This document shows, one piece after another, positions 7-22,280 of a stretch of DNA of 29,432 bases. Positions within the stretch are counted from its first letter, which is position 1. Every line of letters begins with the position of its first letter. This stretch comes from a virus: IMG/VR virus record IMGVR_UViG_3300030450_000303, positions 1-29,432 of that record. One strand, written 5' to 3'. The notes under the pieces are model-generated. The model ran no database searches, was not told the DNA's origin, and saw nothing but the letters and a program-made list of their open reading frames with translations. The position numbers were made by a program, and so were the translations under genes.

Positions 7-540
7 TCAATCCTTTTTGGAGAACTCACCTTCGATCACGTTTGACTCGCTTGCTCGCTTCTTGATCATTTCTTCAAGTCGAGTGAGTATGTCGTCTTTG
101 GACATCATATCGATCTTCGCGGTCAGGATCTCGCGTCTATCAATGTAGAGTCCGCCTGCCTTGCCTCGATGGACCTCCGCTGTGATGGCTGCGGATATCT
201 GTCCTTGGTCTTTAGCCTCCTCCCGCAGTTCGTGGAGAGTGGACAAATGGTTCTCTAGGGAAACTGCGTCCTTCTCTGAGGCTGTGATTTCCAAGTCAAT
301 GAGGTAGTTTCGTACAACTGGGTTATGATTTAGTAATACACTCCCTTGTGTCTTCGCACCCTTTCGATCTTTCGTATACCCTGCTTTAATAGCCGCTTCA
401 GTAGCTGTTTGACCTTTCAAATACTCCTTACAAAATAGTTTTTGCTTTGAGTTGAGCGGTTGCCATATCTTACCCTTGTCATCAATGTATGCTTTACCAT
501 CTTCTGTCGGCATTAATGAAGTATATGTTAGTTGTTTCAT
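7..540 (-). CDS. terS: Terminase small subunit
   Basis: This is the DNA-recognition subunit of the packaging motor, which binds phage DNA and hands it to the large terminase, expected just beyond the left edge. The N-terminal third has the Terminase_2-type helix-turn-helix: LNSKQKLFCKEYL followed by TATEAAIKAGY, then KTQGSVLLNHNPVVRNYL (about residues 29-85 of this start). The rest is helical and charged, fitting an oligomerisation region, and 177 aa is normal for the family. I chose the ATG at 540 because CAGGAG lies just upstream of it; a TTG at 561 would extend the frame by 7 residues but removes that ribosome site. It is the first gene after the regulatory gap at 541-856, so it probably opens the late operon. 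Family assignment is by recognised motifs; function is well established for the family. Confidence 0.88.
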   Translation of the reverse strand: MKQLTYTSLMPTEDGKAYIDDKGKIWQPLNSKQKLFCKEYLKGQTATEAAIKAGYTKDRKGAKTQGSVLLNHNPVVRNYLIDLEITASEKDAVSLENHLSTLHELREEAKDQGQISAAITAEVHRGKAGGLYIDRREILTAKIDMMSKDDILTRLEEMIKKRASESNVIEGEFSKKD

Positions 541-587
541 CGCATCTCCTGGACTTACCAAATGTTATTACAATAATATTAGAAAAC

Positions 588-600: not shown

Positions 601-714
601 TACTTTTCTCGTGCCCTCTAGGTATCTTACCATACATTTGTAATAACTAATAGAAAATCTATTACTTTTGATGATCACAACAATCCAATGACCAAGAGCC
701 TTGTAGAGCTATTC

Positions 715-775
715 TATTAGTATATTAGTGATATTAGTAGTTTTACGATTATTTTTTCAAAAACTTTTTTCTTTT
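715..775 (-). promoter_or_regulatory. 61-bp shared regulatory element, left copy
   Basis: Reading on the minus strand from 775 to 715, this stretch aligns without gaps to 20625-20685 on the plus strand, with about 47 of 61 bases identical by eye. It starts with an A-tract (AAAAGAAAAAA), continues with TTT..TGAAAAAAT, has a divergent centre, and ends with three copies of CTAATA spaced 9 then 8 bp apart. The same 9/8 spacing occurs in the other copy. It lies upstream of the terminase promoter. Activator binding, an iteron-type origin or a UP-like curved-DNA element are all possible; the function is inference. Confidence 0.65.
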
Positions 776-810: not shown

Positions 811-835
811 AAAAAACCCCGCACGAGACGGGGTT
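811..835 (-). terminator. Rho-independent terminator ending the early operons
   Basis: On the minus strand AACCCCG and CGGGGTT form a perfect 7-bp GC-rich stem (829-835 with 815-821) around a 7-nt loop, followed by a run of T (816-811) and TTATTG. It sits 20 bp after the stop of the gene at 857-1255 and separates the leftward early genes from the late promoter region. Confidence 0.9.
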
Positions 836-856
836 CATTAAAAACAGGTTAGCGAG

Positions 857-5614: not shown

Positions 5615-5986
5615 TTACGCTTTCGCGAAGTAGCCTTCTTCAACGAGTCTTTTCGCATAGAACCTAAAGATTCTGAGCGGATCTTGACCCGTAGTCAAAG
5701 TACCTTTCTTCACAGCCAACGCTACCAGATCCTGTGCGGTGAAACTAGCTGAGTCTAACTCAGTTTTCTTAGCTTCAACAACAGTAGTAATCAACGCATT
5801 CATTTGCGGTGTCTTACCTTCTGGTGCTTTGCCACTATACGTATACAAAGTTCTTGCGGAACCTCTACCTGCTTTCGTAGGTTTAGGTATCGCTGTCACT
5901 TTAGCTTTGCTAAGTGGCTTTGCAACTACTTTCGCAGTTGCTATTGGTGCTCTCTTTTTAGAGGGCGTAGAAGTAGATGTTTGCAT
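5615..5986 (-). CDS. Basic putative DNA-binding protein (123 aa)
   Basis: The N-terminal 45 residues are low-complexity and rich in Lys, Ala, Pro and Thr (KKRAPIATAKVVAKPLSKAK), like a histone tail. From about residue 62 the chain looks like a small winged-helix domain: MNALITTVVEAKK, FTAQDLVALAVKKG, then DPLRIFRFYAKRLVEEGYF. The layout suggests non-specific plus specific nucleic-acid binding. The start has AAAGGAGAAAGCAA. It has its own early promoter (6043-6071) and a terminator, so it may be made in larger amounts than its neighbours. DNA binding is inferred from composition and fold-like pattern. Confidence 0.7.
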   Translation of the reverse strand: MQTSTSTPSKKRAPIATAKVVAKPLSKAKVTAIPKPTKAGRGSARTLYTYSGKAPEGKTPQMNALITTVVEAKKTELDSASFTAQDLVALAVKKGTLTTGQDPLRIFRFYAKRLVEEGYFAKA

Positions 5987-8700: not shown

Positions 8701-9039
8701 CTACCAATCCCATCCTGTATGAGGAGCAACTTTTTGATTATCTGAAGCCAATTTGATCTCACGATCGTTTAACCACTCATTAAATGCCCTTTGTGTTTGA
8801 TCAACGTCCGAGTAGAGTTGTTTAAATTCTGACCACTTATTACGTGCAACTTGCACACCATAATAGTAATCACCGTCACCGAGCTTACAACGTGTAATTA
8901 TTTGCCACATACGTTGTTTTGTAACGTCGTATTCTTTTCCTAGTTGTTCTAGTGTAGTTTCTGAGTTGTTCCATTTGTCATACATACTTCTGTATCTAAT
9001 GGAGTTTTCTTTTGCTTTTTGTTGTGAGATACCTTTCAT
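8701..9039 (-). CDS. Sigma-region-4-like helix-turn-helix protein (112 aa)
   Basis: Begins MKGISQQKAKENSIRYRSMY. The centre, WNNSETTLEQLGKEYDVTKQ followed by RMWQIITRCKLGDG, matches the helix-turn-helix of sigma-70 region 4 (TLEqLGKeYdVTrqRvwQI). There is no region 2, so it is not a full sigma factor. The ATG at 9039 overlaps the TGA of the polymerase gene as ATGA, with AAAGGAAA upstream, which decides this start over an in-frame ATG 9 codons earlier. It may act as a transcription regulator, perhaps of late genes; that is inference. Confidence 0.7.
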   Translation of the reverse strand: MKGISQQKAKENSIRYRSMYDKWNNSETTLEQLGKEYDVTKQRMWQIITRCKLGDGDYYYGVQVARNKWSEFKQLYSDVDQTQRAFNEWLNDREIKLASDNQKVAPHTGWDW

Positions 9040-10904
9040 GTTTTTATTTCCTTTGTTTCGCCCCATGACGTACCTAGTTCTTGATCCACTAATAGGGGAA
9101 CAGCAAGTTCGACACAGTTCTCCATTATTCTTGTTACTGTGTTAGCTTGTTCTGTGTTCTCTATTGAAATATCAACTTCATCGTGGACTTGTAGGTGAGG
9201 AACTATTCCTTCCTCCCATAAACCTATCATTGCTAACTTAGTCATGTCAGCAGCAGAGCCTTGTATTAAACGATTTAGAGCCTTGTATGTGTATGACCTT
9301 TTTAAGTCTTCACCATATTTTTCTTTTGCCTCTTCAAGAGGTAAAGGTAGATTGCGTTCATATCTGCTTTCCCACAAATCGAAACGACAGTGTCTACCTG
9401 CGAACGTTTTGATATAGCCACGTTCCATAGCTACCCTTGCACATTGGTCTTGTAGAGCTCGAATAAAAGGAACGTTGGCGTGATACTGCCGAAAAAGTTT
9501 CTCAGCTTCTGTATCGTCTATACCTAGTTCTTTAATCAACTTTTCTTTACCCATCCCATAACTTAATCCTAGATTAATCGTCTTAGCCTGTTTACGAGGT
9601 ATGTTAGCCATGTCTGCAACTATCTGATGAAAGTCTGCGTTGTCGTCTCTATATTGAGCGACGGCATTCTCAGCACCATTTAGTTTCATTTGATTAGCAT
9701 AATGTACAGTTAATCTAGGTTCTTGTTGAGAGTAATCGAACACGCCCCACTGACACCCTTCTTCAGGAATAAACAACGAACGTATCAGGTTGCCTATTTC
9801 TGGGTCACGTGCAGGGACTTGTTGTAGATTAGGATTGCTATAACTAAACCTACCGCTGACTGTACCGCCACGATCATTACGCATAGGATGTGCTTCTGCA
9901 TGAATCCTACCGTTAAATGCGTGTTCCATAATCATCTTATCGATAAACGTAGTTCTAGCTTTGTTGAGTTTTCTAGCTCTAACAATTAATTGTGGAAGTT
10001 CATGCTCATGTCCTTCTAACCAGTCCTTTTGGAAACTAGCCATCCCCTTTTCTGTGCGAGGGAACCACAAGTCATTCTTTTCAAAAATATTTTGTAGAGA
10101 AGCGTTAGCCCATAGATTTACATCACTACCATACTTACGCTTTATCTCTACTTGTATTTTCTGTTCCTCAGTAGATAGTTGCTTGCTAACTACTTCAGCT
10201 TTCTCTTCATCTACTCTAACCCCTCTCCATCTCATTTCTAATAGAAGGGGAATCAGCTTAGATTCCATTTCAAGTATTTTTTCTAGCCCTTGTTCAGCTA
10301 TTTCTAGTTTAAGTTTATTCCATAACTTTAATGTAAGTGCTGCATCTTGTTGACCATAAGGTCCAACGTATTTAGCATGTAGCTTATACATCTCTGACTT
10401 AGGGTTGACACCGAAAGCCAACGCTGCATCTTGTAATAAAGACTCATCTTTCTTTTCATCACAATAAGCAACGCCTAAGTTATCGAGTGAGTAAGAAAAC
10501 CTATTCTCGTTTATTAAAGGAGCTGCAACAATCGTATCAAGTATATTACCTTTTACAATAATGCCTTCTCTCCTTAACCACCCTACATCGTAGAGAGCAT
10601 TATGAAATATAACGTCCCTCTTAGTAGAGCTGAGTAGATTTGTTAACCACCGTAGAACAATCGTCTCATCTAGATTACCACCACCTTCATGACGGATAGG
10701 GAAATAACCACACCAATTCTCTGTTGCTACTCCGATACCTACAATATGCCCACGACCTGTAGCCCATCCTGGACCACAAGTCGTTAGGTGAGGATCATAA
10801 GTTTCTAAATCAATAGCCACTGTCTCTGTCTCAGAAAACTGAGGAAAGACATCAGGCACTGTCCAGGAACTTTCAGGAGCGAAAAGAGAATTCTGCATGA
10901 TCAT
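9036..10904 (-). CDS. polA: DNA polymerase I family (family A) with 3'-5' exonuclease
   Basis: This is the phage replicative polymerase. The N-terminal proofreading domain has AIDLETYDP (D32, E34), FHNALYDVGWL (N102, D106) and YGQQDAAL (Y183, D187). The polymerase domain has TVSGRFS (348-354), motif A FDYSQQEPRL (D390, E395), motif B RKQAKTINLGLSYG (R437, K441, Y449) and motif C LQVHDEVD (H574, D575, E576). No 5'-3' exonuclease domain is present, as in T7-like polymerases. The residue equivalent to E. coli Phe762 is leucine (L445). At 622 aa it is complete. The first ATG overlaps the preceding TGA as ATGA. All catalytic residues are intact. Confidence 0.97.
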   Translation of the reverse strand: MIMQNSLFAPESSWTVPDVFPQFSETETVAIDLETYDPHLTTCGPGWATGRGHIVGIGVATENWCGYFPIRHEGGGNLDETIVLRWLTNLLSSTKRDVIFHNALYDVGWLRREGIIVKGNILDTIVAAPLINENRFSYSLDNLGVAYCDEKKDESLLQDAALAFGVNPKSEMYKLHAKYVGPYGQQDAALTLKLWNKLKLEIAEQGLEKILEMESKLIPLLLEMRWRGVRVDEEKAEVVSKQLSTEEQKIQVEIKRKYGSDVNLWANASLQNIFEKNDLWFPRTEKGMASFQKDWLEGHEHELPQLIVRARKLNKARTTFIDKMIMEHAFNGRIHAEAHPMRNDRGGTVSGRFSYSNPNLQQVPARDPEIGNLIRSLFIPEEGCQWGVFDYSQQEPRLTVHYANQMKLNGAENAVAQYRDDNADFHQIVADMANIPRKQAKTINLGLSYGMGKEKLIKELGIDDTEAEKLFRQYHANVPFIRALQDQCARVAMERGYIKTFAGRHCRFDLWESRYERNLPLPLEEAKEKYGEDLKRSYTYKALNRLIQGSAADMTKLAMIGLWEEGIVPHLQVHDEVDISIENTEQANTVTRIMENCVELAVPLLVDQELGTSWGETKEIKT

Positions 10905-11216: not shown

Positions 11217-11582
11217 TTAGTCCTCCTCTCTGTCTTCTTCAACAGAGTAATTTACATCATTAGCTTCTGATACTATTGTTGCTGTTTCTATGTCAGCAGT
11301 ATTAGTCATGATGTGTTCTTCAGTTAATAATAAATACCTACGCAAATCCCGTATATCATCGAGTAGACCTGCTTCGCCTTTATAGACTTCACCCGCCTCG
11401 AATATATCCCAACCATGCTTTTCAGCTTGGTGCTCGATCCTATCGAACTTACGTGCTAACATCATAAAGGCACCTACACCTCCACGACGTTTCCAAGAGT
11501 CGCCATACGACGTTTCGGCTCGTTTAAGAGCTTCTAAATCGTTTTGAGCAGACTCTTTCATTTTTTCCCATTTATTGCTCAT
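11217..11582 (-). CDS. Conserved phage protein, possibly Nmad1/DUF1599-like
   Basis: The core reads TSYGDSWKRRGGVGAFMMLA, then RKFDRIEHQAEKHGWDIFEA and DDIRDLRRYLLLTEEHI. The pattern YGxSWxxRG...RKxDRIE...DIRDLRRYLLL recurs in phage proteins near nucleotide-metabolism genes and resembles the 'nucleotide modification associated domain 1' pattern. That link is by memory of motif layout and is tentative. The C-terminus is acidic (YSVEEDREED). AAGGAG precedes the ATG, and the start overlaps the end of the ThyA-family gene by 11 bp, so the two are cotranslated. Its place beside ThyA and the hypermodification gene supports a role in modified-nucleotide synthesis. Confidence 0.55.
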   Translation of the reverse strand: MSNKWEKMKESAQNDLEALKRAETSYGDSWKRRGGVGAFMMLARKFDRIEHQAEKHGWDIFEAGEVYKGEAGLLDDIRDLRRYLLLTEEHIMTNTADIETATIVSEANDVNYSVEEDREED

Positions 11583-12621
11583 GAGTATCTCCTTTGTCCG
11601 TCTTGTTAATAGTCGTCTTGTCTCTCTTACGGACCCAATCGAGACAAGCCGTTCTCCAATCAGAAGCTTTTATTAAATTTATCTTGTTATAGACTTCTTC
11701 AAAATTCTTCATCGTATACGCCCTATGTACTTGAAGCATAGGAATAGCTATATCGGTGAATGCTGGGTTAACCCAATTATCTGTATAAGACTCTATGTCC
11801 ATAGGATGCATATTAAAAAATCTATTAAGTTCCCAATCCAAAACATCTACATCTTTGAATAATAAGCTAGGCTTATAATCATCTAGAGTATCATAAGGAT
11901 TCTTTATATCTCTATAAGTGTATATATCTATCTCCATGTGCTTAACTTTGTCCCACACAGGATTCAAATAGATATGAAAACTATCACTAACTTGTCTATA
12001 CACGCCAACCTCTATCTCTAAACAAGTAGCTATGTATTCTTGTAATACTGACATATGAACCACGTTAGCACCATAAGCCCCCCATAGCATATCGTTTGAT
12101 CGATTACATACTGTCATGTTTAATTTGTTATCTCGTATCTTGAAATAGATATTAGTATTACAAGGAACATCTTTGCCTTGTTTATCTAAATCATGTACAG
12201 GATCCCACATTTGTAATACGCATCGCCTATCTTCAGGATTTTTCTTTAACATCTTAATAATGATTGCTAATTGGTTTTTTAGGAAATAAGTCTTCCACCT
12301 ATAACCATAAGCCCCCCATAGAGTTTCACCATCATCTGAAAAATCTTCCATAGACTTAACAAAATAAGTTAATGGTTTTAAATCGTTGTGTCCTGCTAAC
12401 ATCCAAAGACTTTCTATAAAATGAAAGAAAGGGTTAGCGTCTCTTTGTTTATACAAACAGACTCGTTCGCAGGGTTTACTATAAACCGTTGTTACAGGTT
12501 GTAGAGCCTCGTATGTTGTTCCATTACGGCTTTCTTGTACTCTATACGCTGTGTCATCTAAAAATAAATCAATACCTAATAACAAAGCATCGTTTACGTT
12601 TCTTGCGTTAATCACTCTCAT
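11572..12621 (-). CDS. Thymidylate synthase family enzyme (TS or dUMP hydroxymethylase)
   Basis: A ThyA-superfamily enzyme that would add a one-carbon group from methylene-tetrahydrofolate to dUMP, giving dTMP (synthase) or 5-hydroxymethyl-dUMP (hydroxymethylase). The catalytic cysteine is C154 in DVPCNTNIYF. Phosphate-binding arginines are R132/R133 (EDRRCVLQMWDP) and R174 in CNRSND, with D177, N186 in GAYGANVVH, and H216/Y218 in DSFHIYLN. LWGAYG occurs twice, at 101 and 179. The loop before N186 is one residue longer than in E. coli ThyA, and HIYLNPVW replaces the usual HIYSNH. Such divergence is typical of phage hydroxymethylases and other ThyA variants. The ATG overlaps the preceding stop as ATGA. 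Placement beside the base-modification gene favours 5hmdUMP production, but this needs testing. Confidence 0.85.
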   Translation of the reverse strand: MRVINARNVNDALLLGIDLFLDDTAYRVQESRNGTTYEALQPVTTVYSKPCERVCLYKQRDANPFFHFIESLWMLAGHNDLKPLTYFVKSMEDFSDDGETLWGAYGYRWKTYFLKNQLAIIIKMLKKNPEDRRCVLQMWDPVHDLDKQGKDVPCNTNIYFKIRDNKLNMTVCNRSNDMLWGAYGANVVHMSVLQEYIATCLEIEVGVYRQVSDSFHIYLNPVWDKVKHMEIDIYTYRDIKNPYDTLDDYKPSLLFKDVDVLDWELNRFFNMHPMDIESYTDNWVNPAFTDIAIPMLQVHRAYTMKNFEEVYNKINLIKASDWRTACLDWVRKRDKTTINKTDKGDTHEQ

Positions 12622-12839
12622 AACGTTTCCTGATACCCATCTATTATTTCACCTATAAGAAAACTTATCTCGTTCTCGTTTAGTCTAGGAAGTTTTCTCT
12701 TTATGAACGCTACTGCCATTTTGTGATCAGCAGCGACTTTTAAAAAGAAAGCAACTTCTAAAAACTGGGTGTAATGTATGTCCACTGAGTCGCCCCAGTC
12801 TTCTAAAAGCTCAACCGAATATTCGTTAACTTTTCCCAT
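12618..12839 (-). CDS. Small hypothetical protein in the modification operon (73 aa)
   Basis: Begins MGKVNEYSVELLEDWGDSVD and is otherwise helical: FLEVAFFLKVAADHKMAVAF, then LPRLNENEISFLIGEIIDG. No known domain is recognised. AAGGAGAAAG precedes the ATG; the start overlaps the end of the base-modification gene and the stop overlaps the ThyA start as ATGA. This tight packing suggests that the three proteins are made together. Confidence 0.65.
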   Translation of the reverse strand: MGKVNEYSVELLEDWGDSVDIHYTQFLEVAFFLKVAADHKMAVAFIKRKLPRLNENEISFLIGEIIDGYQETL

Positions 12840-13758
12840 ATTTACTTTCTCCTTCTATTAAATCTTCCACCATAGGAAGATCGTTTGGTTTATATATAGA
12901 CCTTGTTCTGCCTTCTCCTTTGAGAATACGTGAGTATTTATCAAACTCACAAAGTCCACCTTCTATGTCGCGTAACTCATAGAATCTATCGTTACGCATG
13001 GTTATATGTGGGGGTAGTCTATCGACAACTATCGCATATAACTCTTGCATTTCTTTGTTCCAATCATGACTGCGATGAGAAAAATCTAGTGGTCTGCCTG
13101 TTAGCCTATTAAGTCCTCGCATAGCTCCTGGACCTGCATTAGCCCATGTCATAATATCAGTTGCCTCATCTAGTATGTATGTGTGTCTTAAATCAGTAAC
13201 TGCTTCGTATGCCATAAATGGACCCAAATAAGGGTATTGCCTCAGTAACGTCCAAGCAGACTTTAAGGAACTTACTCCCTCCGCTTTATCGAACTCTAAG
13301 CGTTTGATTAACCACGTCTTTTCTTCCCATAAATTATTAATACAGTCAACAACTCCTGTAACTTTATCCATACCGTTTGGTGTTTTGATGATATAAGAAC
13401 CAGTAATCCACTGAGGCTGTTCTTTTATAAGTTTTATGGCTTTATCACCATCCCAGTTCACCAATAAATCATTCTCTATTAACGTTCTTCCTGTCGGTAT
13501 ATAGTTAAACCAACGGAAGATAATCGTAGCCATAATAACATCTGAACTATTAACTAGAGGGTCTCTAATGTGTGTTCTAAACCACCTAGTTGTTCTATCG
13601 TCTTCTCGGAACACTTGACAAAACTTAAACTGTTGTAGAATAGGATCGTCTGTCCAAGGAGGAGGAAGTTTAGACTCCTCTTTTTGAAGTCTAATATTCT
13701 CCCTCTCTGTTTGCCAGTAGCAAAAACGGTCTAATTCTTCTGAATAAAATTCAGTCAT
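12826..13758 (-). CDS. Predicted DNA base hypermodification protein (aGPT-Pplase / HMUDK helical-domain family)
   Basis: The sequence matches what I know of the helical, HhH-glycosylase-derived family defined by alpha-glutamyl/putrescinyl-thymine pyrophosphorylases and the helical domain of 5-hmdU DNA kinases. Key segments are DDPILQQFKFCQVFREDDRT with TRWF (about 37-60), IIFRWFNYIPTGRTL, the HhH-like LGPFMAYEAVTDLRHT, and TWANAGPGAMRGLNRLTGR. There is no P-loop, so the kinase half is absent. In characterised phages this family acts on 5-hydroxymethyl-dU in DNA, replacing an activated hydroxymethyl group with another group to give hypermodified thymine. At 310 aa it is a standalone protein. 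AAGGAA precedes the ATG, which directly follows the methyltransferase stop. Family assignment is fairly firm; the exact reaction is unknown. Confidence 0.75.
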   Translation of the reverse strand: MTEFYSEELDRFCYWQTERENIRLQKEESKLPPPWTDDPILQQFKFCQVFREDDRTTRWFRTHIRDPLVNSSDVIMATIIFRWFNYIPTGRTLIENDLLVNWDGDKAIKLIKEQPQWITGSYIIKTPNGMDKVTGVVDCINNLWEEKTWLIKRLEFDKAEGVSSLKSAWTLLRQYPYLGPFMAYEAVTDLRHTYILDEATDIMTWANAGPGAMRGLNRLTGRPLDFSHRSHDWNKEMQELYAIVVDRLPPHITMRNDRFYELRDIEGGLCEFDKYSRILKGEGRTRSIYKPNDLPMVEDLIEGESKYGKS

Positions 13759-14670
13759 TTATTTTTTCCTTAACACCCAAGAACAGTTGTTAGCGTACTC
13801 AGGGTATGGTGTTGCTGCTACTACACGTAGAAACTGTCTGCCATACCTAGACTCTAACATTTCTAATTGTTCAGGCGACCATGCTCTAGGGTATCGTTTT
13901 ACATTTGAATAAGTAGGGATTCCATCTACAGAAGGTTCTACTTGTTCCTTCATCGCTTTCCTTAGATTAGGAAGCTGTATAAACGTTCCTGTAACATCTA
14001 TTATCTCGAAGTTACGTTCTAGTTCTTGTTTAAGTTCTTCAAACCCCCACTCATATATGTGGTCTTCAGGTAGCTTATCATTAGAGCCATCATGGTTAGG
14101 CGTAGAAACAAAAGCCAATCCGTTAGGTCTCATCGTCCTAGCGGCATCGTCTAGCCATGCACCTATAAACTCTCTCCCCATATGTTCAATAACTTCAGTA
14201 GTCCAGAAAAAGTCTATACTTTCATCAGCAATATCAAACACTTGTTTAGGGTTTTGAGGGTCTCTAGTTACCGTCAAGTCTTGTATTCTTATTTCACCAT
14301 TAAAGTTCTTAAACCATGTAGAGTCTTTTAAAGGCTCTCCACCATTAGACCAAAAAGGGTTTTCTAATTCACAGGCGGGATCAATATCGTAGCCAAGATA
14401 TGAAGCAATAACATCTGATTTCTTTATGACGTATGCTTTATATAGGTTTCTTAAAGTCCAACACTCACCACAACCTACTTCAAAAGTATCTAGTGGTCTA
14501 CCCAACCGCTTAGCTTCTTCAATACACATAGAAGCTATCTTATCGAAACGGCTCATATGAGCTATTTCATCAGGTCTCCAGTTTGCCAGTACACCTGCAC
14601 TAGCGATATCCATTCTTGTATTTTTACTGTCGTTTTCATTGACAGTTAGTTTCTTTCTTATTGATGACAT
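13759..14670 (-). CDS. Class I SAM-dependent methyltransferase
   Basis: A Rossmann-fold methyltransferase. Motif I is FEVGCGECWTLRNL (about 63-76 from this start), followed by YLGYDIDPAC (acidic end of strand 2) and FFWTTEVIEHMGREF, with RPNGLAFVSTPNHDG after motif IV; these are typical of the Methyltransf_11/23 group. The TEVIEHM segment is the usual post-motif helix of small-molecule or sugar methyltransferases rather than the NPPY of DNA amino-methyltransferases. GGGAGG lies upstream of the ATG at 14670, which overlaps the preceding stop as TAATG; a TTG 7 codons earlier would include the ribosome site. The target is unknown; the operon context points to the modified base or its precursor. 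Confidence 0.8.
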   Translation of the reverse strand: MSSIRKKLTVNENDSKNTRMDIASAGVLANWRPDEIAHMSRFDKIASMCIEEAKRLGRPLDTFEVGCGECWTLRNLYKAYVIKKSDVIASYLGYDIDPACELENPFWSNGGEPLKDSTWFKNFNGEIRIQDLTVTRDPQNPKQVFDIADESIDFFWTTEVIEHMGREFIGAWLDDAARTMRPNGLAFVSTPNHDGSNDKLPEDHIYEWGFEELKQELERNFEIIDVTGTFIQLPNLRKAMKEQVEPSVDGIPTYSNVKRYPRAWSPEQLEMLESRYGRQFLRVVAATPYPEYANNCSWVLRKK

Positions 14671-15198: not shown

Positions 15199-15228
15199 TT
15201 TATACTTTACTTTTATATGCAAAGTAAA
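15199..15228 (-). promoter_or_regulatory. Early promoter, TTTACTTT class
   Basis: On the minus strand CTTTACTTTGCATA gives -35 TTTACT (15228-15223), an 18-bp spacer and TATAAA (15204-15199). It precedes the gene at 14670-15161 and probably the whole modification and polymerase operon. Confidence 0.6.
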
Positions 15229-20571: not shown

Positions 20572-20600
20572 ATAATATATACCAATTACGGCAAAGTAAA
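20572..20600 (-). promoter_or_regulatory. Early promoter, TTTACTTT class, for the replication operon
   Basis: On the minus strand GCTTTACTTTGCCG gives -35 TTTACT (20600-20595), a 17-bp spacer and TATTAT (20577-20572). Transcription would start near 20565, about 37 bp before the GTG at 20528, and run through the primase and helicase genes. Confidence 0.7.
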
Positions 20601-20624
20601 GCTATTACCGATATGTCTTTTTAA

Positions 20625-20685
20625 AAAAGAAAAAACTTTCTGAAAAAATTTTTTAAGAGTAGCTAATATCGCTAATAAACTAATA
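20625..20685 (+). promoter_or_regulatory. 61-bp shared regulatory element, right copy
   Basis: Matches 715-775 on the opposite strand without gaps over 61 bp. It has the same A-tract start, TGAAAAAAT and three CTAATA units at 20663, 20672 and 20680 (spacing 9 and 8). It lies between the early promoter and the SNF2 promoter and points toward the SNF2 gene, just as the left copy points toward the terminase gene. The gap to TATAAT is 117 bp here and 114 bp there. Confidence 0.65.
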
Positions 20686-20751
20686 CTGACCAGTATATAA
20701 CACAGTGTTTAAGAGGTTATACCAGTATTAGATTTAAAATATCAGTATTAG
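20680..20751. promoter_or_regulatory. Operator-like cluster: dyad and direct repeats
   Basis: ATACTG-AC-CAGTAT (20683-20696) is a perfect dyad with a 2-bp spacer. Two exact copies of CAGTATTAG follow at 20723 and 20743, exactly 20 bp apart. CTAATACTG at 20680 is the inverse of the same 9-mer. A dimeric regulator bound on one face of the helix would fit this spacing. Confidence 0.55.
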
Positions 20752-20802
20752 AGGGCATGGGGAATCTATTAGCTTGGGCTATATATTAACTAGTTTGTAA
20801 TA

Positions 20803-20808
20803 TATAAT
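20803..20808 (+). promoter_or_regulatory. Candidate -10 box for the SNF2 gene
   Basis: TATAAT on the plus strand, 30 bp before the ATG at 20838, with no TTGACA-like box 17 bp upstream. The ribosome site AGAAAGGG follows at 20823. The promoter is probably activator-dependent, like the one upstream of the terminase. Confidence 0.45.
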
Positions 20809-20837
20809 CTCAGGTAGAAATTAGAAAGGGTATATAC

Positions 20838-22280
20838 ATGAATTATAAATTTAAAACTAAGCCGTATGAGCATCAGCTATTAGCGTTATCTAAGTCTTGG
20901 AATAAACGTGAGTATGCTTATTTCATGGAAATGGGAACTGGTAAGTCTAAGGTCCTCATAGATAATATAGCTATGCTTTATGATAAAGGCGGCATTAATG
21001 CTGCAATAATAGTTGCACCTAAAGGGGTTTATAGAAACTGGTCAGAGAAAGAAATACCTACTCATATGCCTGATCACGTAGAAAAACAAATAGCTGTTTG
21101 GACTCCCGCCCCTACAATAAAACAAAAAAGAGAACTAACTAAACTCTTTGAAAGAGGACATGATTTAAAAATACTTATTATTAATGTAGAAGCGTTTAGT
21201 ACCAAGAAAGGAGTAGCTTTTGTAGAAAAATTCATCTTAGCACACAATGCTTTGATTGCTGTAGATGAATCAACCACAATTAAAAATCCAAAAGCTCAAA
21301 GAACTAAAAACTTATTGAAGTTAGCTATCAATACTAAATACAGAAGAATACTTACAGGGTTTCCTGTTACTCAGTCGCCTTTAGATTTATATAGTCAAAG
21401 CAGTTTCCTATCCACACAGTTGTTAGGTTATACATCTTTTTATTCTTTCCAAAATAGATACGCTAAATTAATTAATCGTAAAATGGGAACTCGATCTTTT
21501 AGACAAGTTGTGGGATATCAAAACTTAGAAGAACTTACTAAAAACGTAAGCGAGTTTTCTTATAGGGTATTAAAGAAAGAATGTTTAGACCTTCCTGATA
21601 AAGTTTATCAAAGAAGGGAAGTAGAACTAACTACTGAACAAAAGAAAGTGTATAAAGAACTTAAAGACTATGCTATGGCTGAACTAGACTCTCATGAAAT
21701 AGTTAGTGTAACTTCTGTTCTTACACAAATCCTTAGACTACACCAAGTTGTTTGTGGTTTCGTTAGACATGATAACGGTGAAGAAGTAGAAGTTAAAAGT
21801 AATCGTTTAGATGAATTAGTTAACGTACTAGAAGAAGTACAAGGTAAAACTATTATATGGGCTAACTACCAATACGATATAAAAAGAATTTTAAAGAAGT
21901 TACATGACATAACAGGTGTTGATAGTGTAGCTACTTATTATGGAGAAACACCAGATCAAGAGCGTCAGGAAATAATTAGAAGATTCCAAGATCCAAATTC
22001 AGACCTACAATATTTAATTAGTAACACACAAACAGGTGGTTACGGCATAACACTTACTGAAGCAAGCAACGTTATTTATTACAGTAATAACTACGACTTA
22101 GAAAAACGACTACAGTCTGAAGATCGTGCTCATCGTATAGGACAAACTAATAAAGTAACTTATATTGATTTAGTAGCTAAAGGAACTGTTGACGAAAAGA
22201 TTGTAAAAGCTTTACGTAACAAACTTAGTTTAGCCCAAGAAGTTCTTGGCGATGAAAAGTGGAAAGACTGGATAGGTTAA
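20838..22280 (+). CDS. SNF2-like superfamily 2 helicase/ATPase
   Basis: The only convincing plus-strand gene. It has a Q-motif region (KPYEHQLLAL), Walker A MGTGKS (32-37), IIVAPKGVYRNW, motif II VDESTTIKN (D143, E144; DES rather than DEAH), motif III LTGFPV (172-177), IIWANYQYDIKRI, and motifs V-VI TQTGGYGITLTEA and SEDRAHRIGQTNKV (about 426-440). These are the signatures of SNF2/Rad54-type ATPases, which translocate on double-stranded DNA and displace bound proteins. At 480 aa it is the compact phage form without accessory domains. Its stop overlaps the opposite stop of the gene at 22277-23002. It is controlled from its own divergent promoter region. Remodelling of protein-DNA or branched-DNA intermediates is inferred. 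Confidence 0.92.
   Translation: MNYKFKTKPYEHQLLALSKSWNKREYAYFMEMGTGKSKVLIDNIAMLYDKGGINAAIIVAPKGVYRNWSEKEIPTHMPDHVEKQIAVWTPAPTIKQKRELTKLFERGHDLKILIINVEAFSTKKGVAFVEKFILAHNALIAVDESTTIKNPKAQRTKNLLKLAINTKYRRILTGFPVTQSPLDLYSQSSFLSTQLLGYTSFYSFQNRYAKLINRKMGTRSFRQVVGYQNLEELTKNVSEFSYRVLKKECLDLPDKVYQRREVELTTEQKKVYKELKDYAMAELDSHEIVSVTSVLTQILRLHQVVCGFVRHDNGEEVEVKSNRLDELVNVLEEVQGKTIIWANYQYDIKRILKKLHDITGVDSVATYYGETPDQERQEIIRRFQDPNSDLQYLISNTQTGGYGITLTEASNVIYYSNNYDLEKRLQSEDRAHRIGQTNKVTYIDLVAKGTVDEKIVKALRNKLSLAQEVLGDEKWKDWIG

Follow-up and report, generated by a model that had tools for sequence, protein, structure and literature searches.

The same element stands exactly twice in the window, the whole 29,432-nucleotide stretch of viral DNA analysed here, once before the packaging operon and once before a SNF2-family helicase gene, from which it seems probable that a single phage protein turns both on in concert. 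The sequence finding itself is solid and deeply conserved. We think it reasonably likely that phage promoters of an activator-dependent class with just two members, those of the late operon and SNF2, have the element as their upstream control region. The two copies and the genes that they face are as follows.

7–540, minus strand: small terminase subunit gene, start of the late operon (Pfam Terminase_2, E = 1e-12)
715–775, minus strand: element copy T, directed toward small terminase and made up of an A-tract, TGAAAAAAT and a triplet of CTAATA units at 737–715
20625–20685, plus strand: element copy S, the same element as copy T (triplet at 20663–20685), directed toward SNF2
20838–22280, plus strand: SNF2-family helicase gene (Pfam SNF2-rel_dom, E = 2e-23; Helicase_C, E = 8e-16)

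Copies T and S form an ungapped pair with 47 of 61 positions identical, and both read CTAATA-N3-CTAATA-N2-CTAATA, in agreement with the coordinates, orientation, gap-free alignment and shared triplet spacing given in the initial annotation. When dinucleotide shuffles of both intergenic regions were scored for their best 61-bp ungapped match, 2000 trials gave a mean of 32.7 and a maximum of 41 identical positions, compared with the observed 47. With up to two mismatches allowed, the CTAATA triplet pattern occurred in the 29.4-kb record at copies T and S and nowhere else, and a profile HMM run on the window with the window's own copies left out of training returned two matches of 36–41 bits, all others scoring at most 4 bits. 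An extent of 61 bp proved too narrow, as similarity between the copies continues to TAGAGGGCAYGRG at 620–608 (minus) and 20749–20761 (plus). The larger shared unit includes three direct CTAATA repeats, TAGAGGGCAYGAG and then TTGTAATA about 46 bp further on, usually with extra CTAATA/CTATTAG half-sites that are often inverted. We also observed TAGAGGGCAYGAGRAAA, at 602–620 and 20749–20768, as a second two-copy motif kept in nearly all relatives.

We assessed conservation in related loci from IMG/VR, 80 encoding SNF2 and 80 encoding small terminase. Choosing loci by their SNF2 and terminase proteins biases the set to this lineage; a scan of the whole viral collection used the DNA motif alone. 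Allowing up to a few mismatches, the triplet was found before terminase in all 79 loci that could be scored and upstream of SNF2 in 71 of 72 scored loci, window included, the exception (L071) having CTAATA-like units with their spacing swapped to 8/9. Among 17 large IMG/VR records, 16 carried exactly one forward and one reverse copy, always one ahead of small terminase and one ahead of SNF2, while the remaining record (G007) has the SNF2 copy only because it is cut inside the terminase gene. The proposal that the element is confined to two copies, at terminase and SNF2, therefore held, with no stray copies in the window and exactly two in 16 related genomes, and the copies point toward their own genes in the window and in relatives alike. 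Loss of the element in close relatives, named beforehand as refuting, was not seen; the element is kept. Profile HMMs trained without each tested genome's own copies gave two matches in each of 11 genomes (18–46 bits, against a background of at most ~13 bits). The collection-wide scan with the terminase-type triplet yielded 110 stretches, and all 97 newly fetched, classifiable loci had the match no more than 420 bp before TerS (96) or SNF2 (1). Conservation in alignments of non-redundant loci (38 SNF2, 28 terminase) was patchy and fell in motifs, namely the A-tracts, the CTAATA triplet, the half-sites, TAGAGGGCAYGAG and TTGTAATA; CTAATA columns were mostly at least 90–95% conserved and the flanks were not. 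A search of Rfam gave no match. In the most divergent relatives, L071 and L072, the units upstream of SNF2 have 8/9 rather than 9/8 spacing, with TAGAGGGC either degenerate or absent.

On the terminase side, the region between the preceding operon and the gene contains the following features.

814–836, minus strand: intrinsic terminator closing the preceding operon, shortly ahead of copy T (window example)
647–665, minus strand: inverted half-sites GTAATAG-ATTTT-CTATTAG, from the sequence and an alignment of the 28 non-redundant terminase loci
624–632, minus strand: candidate extended −10 TGGTAAGAT, which contains GGTAAGAT
608–620, minus strand: second shared motif TAGAGGGCACGAG of the terminase promoter
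565–573, minus strand: shared core-promoter candidate TTGTAATAA, 47 bp after the start of TAGAGGGC

The upstream operon finishes at this terminator, shortly ahead of the element, which leaves terminase dependent on a promoter of its own. Folding the sequence before T-runs revealed a strong terminator hairpin just upstream of the element in 77 of 79 terminase loci and 2 of 79 shuffled controls; a simple hairpin finder detected 36 of 79. Across the aligned loci the terminase half-sites usually read CTAATAG-AATT-CTATTAG, exactly (in many relatives) or nearly, and are accompanied by a further CTATTAG or TATTAC. These inverted half-sites would be centred at about −39 if the start follows the TAAGAT box of TGGTAAGAT. 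GGTAAGAT was invariant or had one mismatch in all 78 scored terminase loci, each time 11–12 bp before TAGAGGGC, and was absent at SNF2. The corresponding features before SNF2 are listed below.

20731–20772, minus strand: three inverted CTAATA copies between copy S and SNF2 (start bases 20772, 20751 and 20731)
20749–20761, plus strand: second shared motif TAGAGGGCATGGG of the SNF2 promoter
20774–20779, plus strand: TTGGGC, a conserved −35-like hexamer 18 bp before TAATAT and 23 bp before TATAAT
20795–20808, plus strand: TTGTAATATATAAT, the conserved SNF2 −10 region

SNF2 and its upstream neighbour are transcribed in divergent directions, and this arrangement, together with the terminase terminator, indicates that both genes need initiation inside these regions. 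Inverted TATTAG copies recur as half-sites in the alignment of SNF2 loci. The distance from TAGAGGGCAYGAG to TTGTAATA or TTGTAATAT was 46–47 bp in 34 of 42 SNF2 segments and 29 of 39 terminase segments. TATAAT boxes do lie 114 bp (600–595, minus) and 117 bp (20803–20808, plus) from the element, as first described. The idea that this distance is fixed failed in the relatives, where the terminase TATAAT is not conserved and the SNF2 TATAAT is conserved at a variable distance from the element. Triplet-to-TAGAGGGC distances were 117–119 bp at terminase loci and ranged from 66 to 115 bp at SNF2 loci, one SNF2 subgroup having the triplet without TAGAGGGC; the agreement between 114 and 117 bp is thus a coincidence of this genome. 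Apparent 10.4-bp steps in the distance from triplet to TAGAGGGC (66/67, 86–88, 97, 103, 106–108, 115 and 117–119 bp) were rejected as helical phasing, as they were not significant (p ~ 0.10), and intrinsic bending by the A-tracts was set aside as a special feature, being predicted to be only moderate and not exceptional in copy S. A separate observation is the leader TAGAAATTAGAAAG (~20814–20830, plus) just before the SNF2 start, which is nearly invariant in all relatives, a degree of conservation beyond the need of a ribosome-binding site alone.

Neither core promoter has a consensus −35, TTGGGC before SNF2 being a weak partial one, and the two are not identical, since nothing at SNF2 corresponds to the extended −10 (GGTAAGAT) of terminase. 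A sigma-70 scan found no good promoter pair where one would be expected for terminase or SNF2, and the sole pair that it detected toward terminase sits inside the element itself. The same scan picked up the divergent early promoter beside copy S, with sigma-70-like spacing at 20600–20572. This promoter belongs to a second group of sites.

20572–20608, minus strand: divergent early-type promoter TTTACT-17-TATTAT, abutted by a GTAATAG half-site at 20608–20602
20600, 8517, 6071 and 5341, minus strand: promoter-like TTTACTTT sites that share the strand of the early genes

TTTACTTT sites occur many times per genome between genes. A considerable part of them resemble promoters and share the early-gene strand, on which most of those in the window lie, and relatives repeat them too, often as GTGCTTTACTTTCG followed by a TATAAT-like box. 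Unlike the element promoters of the same phages, the TTTACTTT early promoters come in several copies with a visible −35 and without a CTAATA triplet; the suggestion that the element defines a class distinct from this multi-copy, promoter-like one is therefore upheld. Many SNF2 loci have a CTAATAG-like half-site right against the early −35, with TAATAG or TAATAA before CTTTACTTTG in 48 of 71, so the early promoter may be contacted as well by the factor that binds the element. The TTTACTTT site at 15206–15228 is a palindrome, TTTACTTTTATATGCAAAGTAAA, which recurs in relatives.

In the arrangement that we favour, a DNA-binding protein that the phage makes early or midway through infection would bind CTAATA(G) half-sites of 6–7 bp, three of them direct and far upstream, others nearer the start and often inverted. 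Once bound, it would recruit host RNA polymerase to the core promoters that lack a good −35 and so turn on both the late operon led by small terminase and the SNF2 helicase gene on the opposite strand. We infer activation rather than repression at the element promoters, and their timing is probably late; terminase and virion genes are expressed late in most phages. Two proteins of the window could bind the element.

8701–9066, minus strand: candidate activator, a 121-amino-acid helix-turn-helix protein resembling Mor and sigma region 4 (Pfam Mor, E = 3.7e-5)
5615–5986, minus strand: second candidate DNA-binding protein, with a basic tail and a predicted winged-helix-like core, distributed as the element is

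The protein encoded at 8701–9066, directly after DNA polymerase in the early/replication operon, may well be the activator and is the leading candidate, at a likelihood that we place a little short of even. Its match to PF08765 (Mor) reached 24.1 bits, against a gathering cut-off of 24.9, and Pfam Mor matched 19 of 19 homologues at E values up to 0.1 (best 2.9e-6); it also matched the PHROG late transcriptional activator and sigma region 4. Most positions of its helix TKQRxWQIxTRCKL are invariant among homologues, and the CTAATA units are nearly so. An AlphaFold2 model (pLDDT 79) is helical with a helix-turn-helix, and the closest structures were DNA-binding domains, including Mor and sigma region 4, with weak scores: against 1rr7 the whole-chain match was weak (Z 4.4, rmsd 7.6 over 55 residues), and against a phage Mor model 37 residues matched at 0.7 Å but with E = 1.4. 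Foldseek returned no significant match for the models of either candidate. The 8701–9066 protein occurs in 20 of 21 records of the element lineage and is absent from HTVC027P, HTVC023P, 023Pt_psg01 and DSL-LC04. We rejected this co-occurrence as proof of its role, given that about seven other lineage proteins follow the element in the same way; its distribution is not specific, which makes the link to the element a lead rather than proof. The protein at 5615–5986, small and found across the lineage, has a Lys/Pro-rich tail and a predicted core that resembles linker histone, with matches of that type that were not significant, and it could be a nucleoid or regulatory protein.

The repeats could instead be operators for a phage repressor that holds terminase and SNF2 off early, its release leading to late expression. 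The inverted half-sites overlap the −35 position at terminase, and the half-site abutting the −35 of the divergent early promoter is placed such that a bound protein could block polymerase there. We nevertheless consider repression unlikely, because a triplet placed some 100 bp upstream of the core promoter is unusual for simple repression, because core promoters without a good −35 suggest a need for help, and because the candidate protein at 8701–9066 resembles activators.

Activation by recruitment has its closest described parallel, by analogy of outline, in the Pm promoter of phage Mu with its activator Mor, where a Mor dimer on inverted repeats centred at −43.5 stands in for the −35 element (PMC4390567). 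Both systems combine a sigma-70 −10 without a normal −35, inverted half-sites near −40 (−43.5 in Pm; with a start after TGGTAAGAT, about −39 here), upstream DNA rich in A/T and a small phage-encoded helix-turn-helix activator, here the candidate at 8701–9066. To the plan of Pm the present system adds a triple direct repeat far upstream and TAGAGGGCAYGAG as a second motif, and it serves the late operon and SNF2 from separate promoters; the candidate scores slightly below the Mor gathering cut-off and, over its whole chain, matches the Mor fold weakly. The early-late switch at the phi29 A2/A3 promoters is run by protein p4. It is similar in having divergent early and other promoters, a common intergenic region with A-tracts and an early protein that would favour one set, but the motif here differs and its predicted curvature is only moderate. 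An elaborated form of the activator reading, which we regard as distinctly unlikely, is that an oligomeric phage protein bridges separated CTAATA clusters within a promoter and possibly between the two sites, forming a DNA-looping switch that would time the packaging genes together with the SNF2 remodeller, with SNF2 serving late transcription or packaging.

Binding by a host regulator, with the motif marking two host-controlled promoters, would be in line with the host sigma-70-like early promoter, and the phage origin of the binding protein is a presumption. In 257 Gb of bacterial and archaeal genomes, however, we found ~31 triplets, scattered over unrelated phyla at chance level; none was near TerS or SNF2, which indicates chance matches, and those in SAR116 and other bacteria were accordingly rejected as hosts or proviruses. 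Relatives without the element also lack the Mor-like gene, and together these results make host control quite improbable. The element could also be an iteron-like replication origin present twice, as short direct repeats with A-tracts in AT-rich DNA are the general form of iterons and both copies have them in AT-rich intergenic DNA. This is very unlikely in that each copy faces a gene and the motifs near the promoters recur in both at set distances, and no GC-skew sign change was found at the copies besides the SNF2 gene itself, a test weakened by uniform gene direction. A pac or end-processing signal duplicated by chance is hardly credible: pac sites usually lie beside the small terminase gene, as one copy does, but are normally single, whereas the second copy is found ~20 kb away beside SNF2 in every genome and the promoter-like architecture would go unexplained.

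The element was not found in every phage with a related SNF2 gene. HTVC027P, HTVC023P and 023Pt_psg01 (HTVC023P-type pelagiphages) and the lake phage DSL-LC04 have SNF2 proteins of 46–57% identity in the same gene neighbourhood, but the triplet was absent before SNF2 in all four and occurred nowhere in HTVC027P or DSL-LC04. Searching the DNA before SNF2 in these four relatives for element-like repeats likewise gave none. Only 49–70 bp precede SNF2 in HTVC027P, HTVC023P and 023Pt_psg01, and the 70 bp of 023Pt_psg01 hold consensus-like TTGACA and TATAAT, a simple host-type promoter, which suggests that the present lineage acquired CTAATA control or that the others lost it. An RNA-seq paper on HTVC027P, a phage without the element, does not name terminase or SNF2 in its main text (PMC12753301), and in the literature that we searched we met no description of a late promoter from this group of phages.

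The proposed regulon of these abundant uncultured marine phages is compact, with two promoters, one defined motif and few candidate regulators, such that the switch from middle to late expression becomes directly testable. It would also tie the phage SNF2 helicase, a widespread protein, to packaging and virion genes and thereby narrow its possible roles. Elsewhere in the window, at 11572–14670, a thymidylate-synthase-like gene lies near genes for a methyltransferase and a protein with a 5-hmdU DNA kinase helical domain (PF18723, E = 5.5e-41), and judging from these genes the phage probably hypermodifies thymine in its own DNA.
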